NCBI RefSeq assembly: GCF_001306145.1
Contig: NZ_LGKO01000002.1
Location: 806,001-870,000 of the forward strand
Reading direction: 5' to 3'
From: Thermanaerothrix daxensis
Lineage (GTDB): Bacteria; Chloroflexota; Anaerolineae; Anaerolineales; Anaerolineaceae
Length of the DNA: 64,000 nt
Positions 2,795-47,807 of the stretch are shown piece by piece. The notes under the pieces were generated by a model that had not been told where the DNA came from, did no database searches, and saw nothing but the letters and a program-made list of their open reading frames with translations. The first letter of the stretch is position 1, and the number at the start of each line of letters is the position of its first letter. Position numbers and translations under genes: made by a program.

Positions 2795-3232
2795 TCACTG
2801 TTCAAGCCAAATGGTCACCGGTCCATCATTCAAGATGTGGACCAGCATATGGGCTCCGAAAACTCCTTGCTGTACGGGGATTCCGTAGGATTCCAGGTGG
2901 CGCGCAAAGGCTTCAACCAGTCGTCGGGCGATTTCAGGCGGGGCTGCCTGCGTGAACGATGGTCGGTTCCCCTTGCGCGTATCAGCATAAAGGGTAAATT
3001 GGGAGACCACCAGGGCCTCTCCGCCCACATCCTGAATGGAGAGGTTCATTTTGCCCCCGTCGTCCTCAAAAACGCGCAGGTAAGCAATTTTGCGGGCCAG
3101 TAGGGCGGCTTTTTCCTCGGTATCTTCTAATCCCACACCGAGCAGGATGACAAAGCCCGGCCCGATTTGGGCAACGATCTGGTCATTCACTTTGACGCTG
3201 GCCTCACGGACTCGTTGAAGGAGAGCGCGCAT
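2795..3232 (-). CDS. dtd: D-aminoacyl-tRNA deacylase
   Basis: DTD removes D-amino acids (and glycine from tRNA-Ala) from mischarged tRNA. The 145-residue protein has both family signatures: [17 protein letters not shown] in the middle and NDGPVTIW near the C-terminus, the GPVT motif that enforces chirality. The start is ATG 3232 ([15 protein letters not shown]), overlapping the trpS stop by one base (TGATG). An upstream reading to 3322 is only trpS sequence in another frame. Third gene of selW-trpS-dtd, all linked to translation quality or redox. Confidence 0.96.
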
Positions 3233-4221
3233 CAGGGCAACCCAATGGCTTCGCGGACTTCTTGCATGGTTTGTTCGGCAATCACCCGGGCGCGGGCGGC
3301 ACCCTGGCGCAAGATCTCCCAAATCGTTTCCGGATTCTGAGCCAATTCTGCCCGACGTTCACGGAAGGGGGCCAGGTGCTCGTTCAGGTTGCGGGCAAGC
3401 AGTCGCTTGCAATCTACGCAGCCGATCCCGGCACGACGGCACTCGACATTCACCATGGCAATCTCTTCGGGCTTGGAGAAAACTTTGTGCATGGTAAAGA
3501 CATTACACACATCCGGGTTGCCCGGGTCCGTGCGTCGTACTCGTTGTGGATCAGTGACCATTTGCATCACTCGCTGGAGGGTTTCCTCCGGAGTGGCAGC
3601 GAGTTCAATGTGGTTATTCAGGCTCTTGCTCATCTTCTGTTGCCCATCAATGCCCAGCACTTTGGGCACTTCGGTCACTTTCATTTCTGGCTCGATGAGC
3701 ACCTGGGTGTTATAGCGATAATTAAAGGAGCGCACCACCTCACGAGCGAATTCAATGTGGGGCGCCTGATCCAGTCCTACCGGCACCAAATTGGCCTTGT
3801 AGAGCACGATGTCGGCAGTCATCAATACCGGGTAGCCCACCAACCCATAATTTACATTGTGGGGCTGCTGACGTGCCTTTTCCTTAAACGTAGGAAGATC
3901 AGTTAGCTTCCCCAGCGGGGTGACCATTGAAAGATAAGTATGCAATTCCATTACTTGGGGTACATTGGACTGCACGAAGATGATGCTTTTTTCGGGGTCA
4001 ATCCCGGCCGCCAACCAATCTAGCGCCATTTCGTAGGTGTTCTGACGCAAGTCTCGTGTGGTTTCGAGCGTGGTCAAGGCGTGAACATCTACGATGCAGT
4101 AAATACACTCGTAATCCTCTTGTAACGCCACGTAATTGCGAATGGCGCCCAGGTAATTACCGAGATGCTGCCGGCCTGTTGGGCGGGCTCCGGAAAAAAC
4201 GCGACCTTTCTTCTGGCTCAT
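3232..4221 (-). CDS. trpS: Tryptophanyl-tRNA synthetase
   Basis: Class Ic synthetase of 329 residues, the normal bacterial size. The HIGH-like motif appears as [13 protein letters not shown] near residue 15 and the KMSKS loop as [11 protein letters not shown] near residue 195. [18 protein letters not shown] and [12 protein letters not shown] are typical of the tryptophan and adenylate site. The ATG at 4221 overlaps the end of selW (ATGA), and the end overlaps dtd, so the three genes are translationally coupled. Confidence 0.97.
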
Positions 4222-4472
4222 GTACGTCCTTCCTGTAAGTAGTTTTTCACCAGGCTCAGGATTTCGCCTGGTTCCGCATGTCGGCCAGTTTTAAGTTTCG
4301 AGTAAAGCAACTGCCCGTTCACGCTGACCTCAAAGCGACCACCATCTGAGGGAATCACCGTGATGGATTCAATCTCGGGTTCAAAGTTTTTTAGTAAATC
4401 AGCCATCAGACCGATGGCACGATCCGTATAATGTCAAACTGCACAATATTCAATCGTGATTTTAAGCCACAT
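4218..4472 (-). CDS. SelW/Rdx-family selenoprotein (in-frame TGA = selenocysteine, codon 13)
   Basis: Read from ATG 4472 (RBS GAGG, 7-base spacing), the protein is 84 residues with one in-frame TGA at 4436-4434. Translating it as U gives MWLKITIEYCAVUHYTDRA, matching the N-terminal strand and CxxU redox motif of SelW-like (Rdx) proteins exactly where CxxC or CxxU occurs (C10, U13). The rest (GGRFEVSVNGQLLYSKLKTG) is the conserved Rdx core. A hairpin with a GGTCT loop lies 18-34 nt after the TGA. Starting at the in-frame ATG 4406 would give only 62 residues and lose the active site. Rdx proteins are thioredoxin-fold oxidoreductases whose physiological partner is generally unknown. The gene leads trpS-dtd. 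Sec insertion would need selA, selB, selC and selD elsewhere. A nonsense mutation in a CxxC gene is the alternative. Confidence 0.88.
4402..4418 (-). promoter_or_regulatory. Bacterial SECIS-like hairpin after the selW UGA
   Basis: Minus-strand RNA: GCCAUC, loop GGUCU, GAUGGC, a perfect 6-bp stem. The apical loop begins 21 nt after the UGA codon and opens with GG, matching the known bacterial SECIS spacing (roughly 16-37 nt) and loop-G requirement. GGUCU is also the core of the E. coli fdhF element. An outer AUC/GAU pairing can extend the stem across a small internal loop. Confidence 0.8.
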
Positions 4473-4507
4473 AGGCTTTCCTCTAGATAGGGATGTGTGT
4501 GGCAAAA

Positions 4508-4545: not shown

Positions 4546-5202
4546 ATGGGTTGGCAGTGGTTTCCTGAGGGTATTCCCTGGTCAAAACGACTTTTTGACT
4601 TAATTCTGGTATTGCTGGGTATGATTCTGGCACTCCCATTGATGGGGATCATTGCTCTGGCCATCCTTGTATTTGAAGGCCCTCCGGTAATTTTCCGTCA
4701 GCCACGTCCGGGTTATAAGGGTCGAATTTTTAAGTTATATAAATTCCGCACAATGCGAGAAGCCTACGACGCGCAGGGGAATCTGTTGCCTGATGCGCAG
4801 CGATTGACGCCTCTGGGGCGGTTTCTACGCGCAACCTCGCTGGACGAACTGCCCGAGCTCTTCAACGTGTTGCGGGGTGAGATGAGCCTGGTGGGGCCGC
4901 GCCCACTTCTGGTGGCTTATTTGGAGCGATATACCCCCGAACAGATGCGGCGGCACGATGTGCTGCCGGGAATCACCGGCTGGGCACAGGTTAATGGGCG
5001 CAATGCCCTTTCATGGGAGGATAAATTCCGGCTGGATGTCTGGTACGTGGATCACTGGTCATTGTGGTTAGATATTAAAATTCTCGCTTTGACCATCTGG
5101 AAGGTCTTGCGGCGAGAGGGAATTAACCAGCCGGGGCAGGCGACAATGGAAGAATTTATAGGATCAACCCCGCCGACCGATCAAGGGGGAGTTAAGGGGT
5201 AG
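4546..5202 (+). CDS. Undecaprenyl-phosphate sugar-1-phosphate transferase (WcaJ/PglC type)
   Basis: Bacterial sugar transferase of the monotopic phosphoglycosyl transferase family, 218 residues in the short form. Order: basic KRLFDL, one hydrophobic segment (about residues 20-45), FKLYKFRTM, TSLDELPELFNVLRGEMSLV, GPRPLL and PGITGWAQVNGRN. It transfers a sugar phosphate from a nucleotide sugar to the lipid carrier at the inner membrane face, the first step of a glycan or surface polysaccharide. The start is ATG 4546; the upstream reading from 4456 overlaps the selW promoter region. TAAAAT sits seven bases before the ATG with no ribosome site, so the mRNA may be leaderless. No glycosyltransferase neighbours are present. 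The last 22 bp overlap the convergent lipoprotein gene. Confidence 0.9.
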   Translation: MGWQWFPEGIPWSKRLFDLILVLLGMILALPLMGIIALAILVFEGPPVIFRQPRPGYKGRIFKLYKFRTMREAYDAQGNLLPDAQRLTPLGRFLRATSLDELPELFNVLRGEMSLVGPRPLLVAYLERYTPEQMRRHDVLPGITGWAQVNGRNALSWEDKFRLDVWYVDHWSLWLDIKILALTIWKVLRREGINQPGQATMEEFIGSTPPTDQGGVKG

Positions 5203-46532: not shown

Positions 46533-47807
46533 CTAGTTTTGCTGTACAAAGCGTAACGCATACTCGGCATCCGGGTAACCCGGATGGGCTTTGAGGGCTT
46601 CTTCAAAAGAAGCAATGGCTTCGCTCTTTTTCCCCTGCCGGTAAAGCCCCCACCCTCGCCAGAGCAGCGCTTCTTCAGAATTGGGAGTGCGCTTTAGGGC
46701 ATACTCGGTCAGCGCCATTAGGTCGTCAATCCGGTGTGTGTGAAAATAGGCGAAAAAGGGACCAAACTGGTAGCGAAGCATACGCTGGGGCAGTCCGAGT
46801 GTGCGCGCTTGATCGTAGGCCGCAGCGGCCTCTTCATAACGCTCGAAGTACACCAGATTGGTACCAAGGTTGAACCATGCAAAGGCATTATCGGGTTGTT
46901 CCTGTGTCTCGTGTTGGGCAGTTTCGAGGGCATGGTGGCGGTTGGCCTCTACGTCCCAATCCTCGCCAAGAAGTGCCTGAAGAGTCGCCTCGCTTTCGGG
47001 GGGGAAGACCAGAAAATAAACGCGATTGAAAGCCTGCCAGTTTTGATCAAGTCCTACGTACGGGATCAGGCGATTGGGACCGTAAAAGGAATCCTGGGCG
47101 ATAAAGTAGCCTTCTCCGTCATCGTATCCGGTCAGCAATAAATAATGCCCGGCCCACCGATCGTCGTTGGGCCAGTAGGATTCTTCCATCAGGTAGCCCT
47201 CTTCAATGACAACTGGAAATCCAGCCGCCAATAAACGTTTGAGCAATGCCAGGTCACCCCCCACCCGAAACTCACTCCGCAGCCATCCCACATAACTGCG
47301 GGTGAAGTAGAGAAGTTCCTCGACGTTGACGTTTCGATCCTGCGGAATGGGTTTAATCACTGCGGCAATATCGTTCTGGGTGCCTTTCCAGCCGTAATAG
47401 CGCAGGAGCATGGCTAATGTGGCTGGACCACAGTTGTTAATGTCCTGTTTTTCATAGGGTGGGACGGGCAATTCAATTCGCTGGGGGAGCGGTGTTGGGG
47501 TCAAAGTGGGGGTGGGCGAAGAAACTAAAGGTGCAGGTGTTGGGGTGGGACGCTCCGCGGAAGATAGGAGGTGGGTGGGCGTAGCGGTAAAAACGCGCAC
47601 TCTGGGGGTGGGTAGGGGTTTGACCGGGTCTACCACGCCCCGGAGGTAGGTGGTAATGACCTCATAGCGCCATATCAGCCTGGAACGCAAGGAGGGCGAT
47701 AGCATGGTGAGTACCGCTAGTACGGAAAGGATAAGAAAGATGCTCAGAAGGAAACGCCCACCCCAATGTAAGCGGTGGGTATTACGGTATTTTCGGGTGC
47801 TCAGCAT
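46533..47807 (-). CDS. C39-like cysteine peptidase with TPR repeats
   Basis: 424 residues from ATG 47807. Signal anchor (about 15-38), Thr/Pro linker, then a papain-like C39_2-type domain with catalytic Cys in DINNCGPATLAMLLRYYG, His in GHYLLLTGYD and Asp in IAQDSFYG. Two or three TPRs follow (NAFAWFNLGTNLVYFERYEE and ALLWRGWGLYRQGKKSEAI). The reading from 47909 adds 34 unlikely residues. Exposed on the outside of the membrane, substrate unknown. Followed by the metallopeptidase gene after 37 bp. Confidence 0.8.
   Translation of the reverse strand: MLSTRKYRNTHRLHWGGRFLLSIFLILSVLAVLTMLSPSLRSRLIWRYEVITTYLRGVVDPVKPLPTPRVRVFTATPTHLLSSAERPTPTPAPLVSSPTPTLTPTPLPQRIELPVPPYEKQDINNCGPATLAMLLRYYGWKGTQNDIAAVIKPIPQDRNVNVEELLYFTRSYVGWLRSEFRVGGDLALLKRLLAAGFPVVIEEGYLMEESYWPNDDRWAGHYLLLTGYDDGEGYFIAQDSFYGPNRLIPYVGLDQNWQAFNRVYFLVFPPESEATLQALLGEDWDVEANRHHALETAQHETQEQPDNAFAWFNLGTNLVYFERYEEAAAAYDQARTLGLPQRMLRYQFGPFFAYFHTHRIDDLMALTEYALKRTPNSEEALLWRGWGLYRQGKKSEAIASFEEALKAHPGYPDAEYALRFVQQN

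Follow-up and report, generated by a model that had tools for sequence, protein, structure and literature searches.

A predicted SelW-like selenoprotein gene with a SECIS-type hairpin, upstream of trpS and dtd, in Thermanaerothrix daxensis

Results

The selW locus and its neighbours

The window, by which we mean the whole 64-kb stretch of Thermanaerothrix daxensis DNA that was analysed, carries on its minus strand a short gene, selW, which starts at ATG 4472, contains TGA as codon 13 (4436-4434) and ends in the TGA at 4220-4218 (Table 1). Its read-through product of 84 residues, MWLKITIEYCAVUHYTDRA...QEGRT, has Cys at position 10 and the predicted Sec at position 13, so that the in-frame TGA at the second CxxU position, which an earlier note on this DNA had read from ATG 4472, is found exactly there. 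The sole entry of the table-11 ORF list in this frame is 4218..4406, the 62-residue fragment that the same note expected when TGA is taken as a stop, and its statement that gene calling misses the gene holds against this mechanical list. The gene model is corrected accordingly; when UGA is read as a stop, a conserved redox protein loses the half that holds its active site, and the same loss applies across Anaerolineae and other Chloroflexota. A total of 2172 TGA triplets occur on the two strands of the window, and only two of them, codon 13 of selW included, passed a filter that combined an open frame, a Cys three residues away and a strong bSECIS hairpin. The other codon that passed, at 46605 on the minus strand, probably did so by chance.

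Table 1. Features of the selW locus, in positions of the window.
Feature	Position	Strand	Evidence or remark
SelW-like (Rdx family) selenoprotein CDS	4218..4472	minus	84 aa, predicted Sec at 13, stop codon included
In-frame UGA, predicted Sec (CAVU, second redox position)	4434..4436	minus	TGA kept in 34/35 Rdx-matching genomes
bSECIS-type hairpin, 6-bp stem GCCAUC/GAUGGC, 5-nt loop GGUCU	4402..4418	minus	fits the published bSECIS model
Ribosome-binding-site-like AGAGGA, 6 bases 5' of ATG 4472	4479..4484	minus	putative, sequence inspection
trpS (tryptophanyl-tRNA synthetase)	3232..4221	minus	PF00579, E 1.3e-67
dtd (D-aminoacyl-tRNA deacylase)	2795..3232	minus	PF02580, E 2.3e-57
Divergent sugar transferase	4546..5202	plus	PF02397, E 6.5e-67; start chosen at ATG 4546

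The selW gene heads an overlapping selW-trpS-dtd set (2795-4472, minus strand), in which the ATGA at 4221-4218 contains both the stop of selW and the start of trpS, and the trpS stop and the dtd start share one base (TGATG). In the ORF list the divergent sugar transferase starts further out, at GTG 4456, and so covers the 5' end of selW. Downstream of selW, trpS lies within 300 nt in 46 of 53 non-duplicate Chloroflexota selW loci and dtd follows directly in the other seven; the exact ATGA overlap between selW and trpS was found in eight of the 53. Where trpS is present and the sequence extends 1450 nt or more downstream (40 selW loci), dtd follows behind trpS in 29. Many Anaerolineae also carry a second, distant TrpS (35-50% identity), and the window's genome has a single match.

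Thirteen relatives have a close trpS and no selW, and in eight of these the divergent neighbour of trpS is still the same sugar transferase. A search for a SelW remnant near trpS in the thirteen gave scores of 44 at most, compared with 89-301 for accepted homologues. Four of the 14 regions slightly surpassed the highest score among 60 shuffles, in which half as many frames were read. The 14th region belongs to a genome (G027) in which selW is located elsewhere. No remnant thus stands beside the retained trpS, suggesting that selW was cleanly lost in some lineages.

Family and fold of the read-through product

The read-through product matches the Pfam family Rdx (PF10262) over the whole profile (positions 1-74 of 74) with 75 bits against a cut-off of 22.6 (E 5.5e-21), which bears out the SelW/Rdx assignment of the earlier note, and it exceeds the cut-off of NCBIfam TIGR02174 (CXXU_selWTH; 57 bits, cut-off 34.2). 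With NF041051 (SelTWH_Campy), the Epsilonproteobacterial SelW of PMC4607533, it shares the family and, as far as the available text of that paper describes them, the place of UGA in CxxU and the SECIS hairpin. It differs from NF041051 in scoring 76.7 bits, under the cut-off of 88, and the selW product is therefore not a SelTWH_Campy equivalog.

The top solved relative by sequence is 2fa8 (E 4e-10), whose second active-site Cys faces the selW UGA in the alignment. An AlphaFold2 model built from an alignment of 21 sequences gathered in the analysis reached a pLDDT of 95.5 and a pTM of 0.85, and places the CxxU loop (C10/U13) between a strand at 3-10 and a helix at 16-33, as in a thioredoxin-like fold. 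Foldseek against the PDB again returned 2fa8 as the top match (E 6.9e-8, TM 0.86, rmsd 1.3) and also matched mouse SelW, 2npb (E 6.3e-4). The Cys-type SelW-related structures 2fa8, 2p0g, 3dex, 2ojl, 2obk and 2oka share the fold with query TM values of 0.83-0.87 at 23-32% identity, and the alignments of 2fa8, 2p0g and 3dex show CxxC at the active-site position, with Cys where the window's gene has the Sec codon. An in-frame UGA where homologues have Cys is a mark of bacterial selenoproteins, and selW shows it.

Selenocysteine machinery of the genome

The genome of the window (G000; 3,012,066 bases in six contigs) contains the complete sel set. Profile matches above the curated cut-offs were obtained for selA (532.9 bits), selB (342.6 bits, with the SelB winged-helix domains present) and selD (356.9 bits), and selC, the tRNA-Sec gene, was found with 76.9 bits and the anticodon UCA. 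Another match of the tRNA-Sec profile over the cut-off, at C4:55126, was rejected, being a tRNA-Ser by ARAGORN. The selD gene is itself of the selenoprotein type, with an in-frame TGA in CAGUASK (L011; C1:770652-771584 of the same genome). In the bacterial pathway as given in the available text of PMC1794560, SelA makes the Sec-tRNA, and SelB bound to the SECIS element delivers it to UGA.

The SECIS-type hairpin in the window and across the family

The hairpin GCCAUC-GGUCU-GAUGGC starts fifteen bases 3' of the UGA and its loop starts 21 nt after it; ATG 4406, the start that a naive caller chooses, sits inside the hairpin. The bSECIS model in section 5 of PMC13188914 asks for a loop of 3-9 nt, an upper stem of 4-16 bp, an MFE of -7.5 kcal/mol or lower, a G in the first two loop positions, mostly then G or U, and a distance of 16-37 nt from the UGA. 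The window's hairpin agrees with every numerical item of the model (5-nt loop GGUCU, 6 bp, 21 nt), with an MFE of -8.1 kcal/mol for the hairpin alone and -13.4 kcal/mol for the first 42 nt from the UGA. Dinucleotide shuffles gave z values of -2.27 and -2.64, and synonymous recodings of the same peptide gave z -0.61, with 17% of the recodings equally good; the register-A pairing described below is reached by 27% of such recodings. No Rfam family covers the hairpin in scans of the window and of 4300-4500. The single hairpin of the window is thus statistically unremarkable and gives weak support when taken alone, whereas the support from the family is strong.

In the first set of 66 loci, which comprise 62 distinct 60-mers, 59 of the 62 distinct genes pass the bSECIS model, with at least four Watson-Crick pairs required, and three fail, against 22.5-22.9 passes expected from synonymous recoding. 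A held-out set was made up of 30 loci returned by the phylum search and 80 hand-picked from the TIGR02174 matches listed, of which 109 of 110 could be placed, 64 as Sec-type and 45 as Cys-type. Among the 64 Sec-type loci, 60 are new distinct 60-mers, and all 60 pass (23.4 expected from synonymous recoding, sd 3.6). The Cys-type genes pass in four of 45 cases (6.4 expected, sd 2.1), a control that is imperfectly matched because most of these 45 genes come from a separate subfamily whose motif is set in a different peptide.

The pairing itself was assessed in an alignment of 30 hand-picked sequences, mostly of register A. The stem positions pair in 92.2% of cells, and sliding the partners lowers this to 58% or less. 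Compensatory changes, with both sides of a pair altered, were counted in 18 cells, compared with a shuffled mean of 4.9, and none of 500 shuffles was as high. Three of the six stem pairs show such double changes, and in 11 of the 30 sequences the outermost pair does not form. These computations show that the SECIS-type hairpin is under selection in the SelW family. The family makes a clean natural comparison for bacterial SECIS elements, with the pairing present in its Sec-type and absent from its Cys-type members.

Distribution of the in-frame TGA in relatives and in the phylum

Of 61 genomes, made up of that of the window and those of 60 relatives, 35 gave an Rdx match; in 34 of these the match contains a single TGA, and in the remaining one, G017, it is free of TGA. 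The TGA stands at the CxxU position in each of the 31 inspected genomes among the 34 (all except G045, G050 and G059). The locus pattern used demands Tyr-Cys-x-x-TGA and is not independent evidence for the TGA, whereas the stop counts inside the profile matches are independent. A degraded frame upstream of 4406 in close relatives, which the earlier note had considered as a sign against a selenoprotein, was not seen in these genomes. The remaining 26 of the 61 have no detectable Rdx gene, so selW is dispensable in the lineage. The gene of G017 (L088) is a divergent Cys-type SelW (CVPCGF, 38% identity) lying beside trpS in a genome that has selA, and it may reflect a change from Sec to Cys or a replacement.

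All 34 TGA-bearing genomes of the 61 have a selA match, which in G010, G025, G037 and G038 is only a fragment or falls below the cut-off, and eight of the other 27 genomes are without selA (Fisher p 7.5e-4, kinship ignored). A TIGR02174 match was obtained in 139 of 301 sampled genomes of the phylum. Among the 136 of these 139 whose matches were listed, the 99 genomes with a TGA-bearing copy all match selA, and 37 genomes hold stop-free copies only, six of them lacking selA (Fisher p 3.0e-4, kinship ignored). One of the 37, G136, has a match that covers the profile only from position 10 on, past the active site. Since selA is widely distributed in the phylum (found in 250 of 301 genomes), the association with selA is modest, though it is without exception on the TGA side.

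A few single loci deserve mention. Longilinea arvoryzae carries the gene as well (L033/L055). In L077 (match 3001-3327), a segment of about 30 residues (DRAVSLMDELLKGYEH...GGRF) occurs twice within the SelW gene, close to the end of a contig; the repeat is either a real duplication or an assembly error. The SelW frame of L075 (220-315) stops early, with TAA after EEYEHVI and trpS following, possibly as a decaying copy or through a sequencing error. L080, from a record titled Akkermansia muciniphila MAG, has almost the same SelW as a Pedosphaera MAG from a lake (L081) and falls among the Verrucomicrobia rows, and its bin name is doubtful. A mobile origin was also considered; megablast of the region found no match in plasmids and tblastn of the protein none in phages, giving no sign of such an origin in those two collections.

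Discussion

Proposed decoding of the UGA at codon 13

We interpret selW as the gene of a SelW-like oxidoreductase of the Rdx family in which the UGA at codon 13 is decoded as Sec by means of SelB and the hairpin, and we put the probability of this reading at about 0.96. It draws on the computed family and fold, on the conserved UGA and on a hairpin under selection in a genome with the complete sel set, all of which support what the earlier note had supposed, namely that this lineage decodes UGA as Sec: selA, selB, selC and selD are present and a bSECIS-type hairpin, which that note leaves unmentioned, lies 3' of the conserved codon. In the proposed course of events, the ribosome would initiate at ATG 4472 and SelB with Sec-tRNA-Sec (UCA) would bind the hairpin just 3' of the UGA, whereupon Sec would be incorporated at codon 13 rather than the chain being terminated, and the chain would be finished at 84 residues. 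Cys10 and Sec13 would then form a Cys-x-x-Sec redox pair in the loop that leads from the first strand to the first helix of the thioredoxin-like fold, and the predicted function of the product is that of a small thiol/selenol oxidoreductase. From these data we infer the insertion of Sec at codon 13 and the redox activity, and the same applies to any cellular role.

If the TGA were an ordinary stop, the locus would be a nonsense pseudogene with a 62-residue remnant starting at ATG 4406, and the table-11 list, which shows the 62-residue ORF alone, would agree with that. However, a single TGA is kept in 34 of the 35 matching genomes with the peptide conserved on either side of it, the presumed start lies within the hairpin, the product from 4406 would be without C10 and residue 13, and no selW remnant is seen near trpS where the gene is absent. 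A pseudogene was therefore rejected, and we consider it very improbable. An in-frame TGA inside a conserved gene might equally be read as a sense codon, Trp or Gly, throughout the genome. Such a reassignment has a negligible probability and was likewise rejected, as selW and trpS both terminate in TGA, the genome has a tRNA-Sec with the anticodon UCA, and the Cys-type homologues have Cys at this place, not Trp or Gly.

The decoding of UGA could also be leaky and mainly regulatory, so that the supply of Sec sets how many ribosomes reach the starts of trpS and dtd. The ATGA and TGATG overlaps are compatible with this, as is the presence of trpS adjacent downstream in 46 of the 53 Chloroflexota selW loci and of dtd in the other seven. 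The ATGA overlap is nevertheless limited to eight of the 53 loci, trpS occurs without selW in the 13 relatives examined (in eight of them beside the same sugar transferase), and the conserved CxxU, the fold and the Cys-type homologues argue that the SelW protein itself matters; a mainly regulatory role is unlikely. It is similarly doubtful that Sec decoding in selW gates the synthesis of TrpS and Dtd in the lineage of the window, which would make both partly selenium-dependent because ribosomes halting at codon 13 never reach the trpS start. Were it so, the selenium supply would be coupled to the charging of tRNA-Trp, which is a near-cognate competitor at UGA.

Relation to known selenoproteins

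With Sec decoding at codon 13 as the preferred reading, the gene belongs to a known bacterial family. The earlier note was right that bacterial SelW-like proteins with CxxU are known, as the available parts of PMC1794560 and PMC2398784 attest; the former, a bacterial survey of 2006, includes the family and gives Chloroflexi three selenoproteins in three families in its Table 2, and the latter has SelW-like proteins as the most abundant selenoprotein family in marine metagenomes (427 Sec against 56 Cys homologues). As described in the text available from these two papers, the bacterial proteins share with the window's gene the short Rdx protein, the CxxU motif and a bSECIS directly 3' of the UGA, and the Sec form is common relative to the Cys form, as it is here. 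The window's gene differs from them in its host, a member of the Anaerolineae (Chloroflexota), and there is no difference in kind. In Epsilonproteobacteria, SelW genes were completely missed in some genome annotations, according to the available text of PMC4607533. The available text of PMC5029168 and PMC12013277 yielded nothing on SelW and Chloroflexi. SelW-like bacterial selenoproteins and the fact that annotation overlooks them are therefore already published, and the gene described here adds a well-supported case from the Chloroflexota.

Two registers of the hairpin

The less expected and more interesting by-product of the analysis is that the hairpin takes either of two registers, offset by about 4 nt, with repeated switches between them. 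No report of register switching through synonymous codons was found in the literature searched, in which subscription journals were poorly covered and which included the available text of PMC4607533 and PMC13188914. With the two registers it becomes directly testable how strictly SelB depends on a set distance between the UGA and the loop (17 versus 21 nt).

The comparison covers positions 4402-4418 of the window and the matching stretch of L022-L087 and L104-L173. By best pairing, 39 of the 62 genes of the first set belong to register A (loop 21 nt from the UGA) and 22 to register B (17 nt), with one tie; L069, which is almost unpaired, and L033, which comes close to a tie, are counted among the 22. 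In the held-out Sec-type genes, the loop lies at 17-19 nt in 21 genes and at 21-22 nt in 39 genes.

Judged by their codons, the two registers appear to be mutually exclusive through synonymous choices. Where codon 7 after the UGA encodes Val, it is GTC in all 25 cases of register A, and GTG (18) or GTA (3) in the 21 cases of register B. Codon 8 is GGT (20) or AGT (18) in register A and AGC (13), AGT (6) or GGC (3) in register B, and codon 5 is CGG in 20 of the 22 genes of register B, these differences being partly circular because the register labels derive from the pairing itself. On a gene tree of 124 Sec-type rows (78 of register A, 39 of register B and seven of neither), label B needs 12 changes, at least seven of which are forced by well-supported branches; the number is rough because the tree rests on 70 columns for these 124 rows and has many unresolved forks. 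The repeated switches on this tree suggest that the SECIS element was remade several times at the same site.
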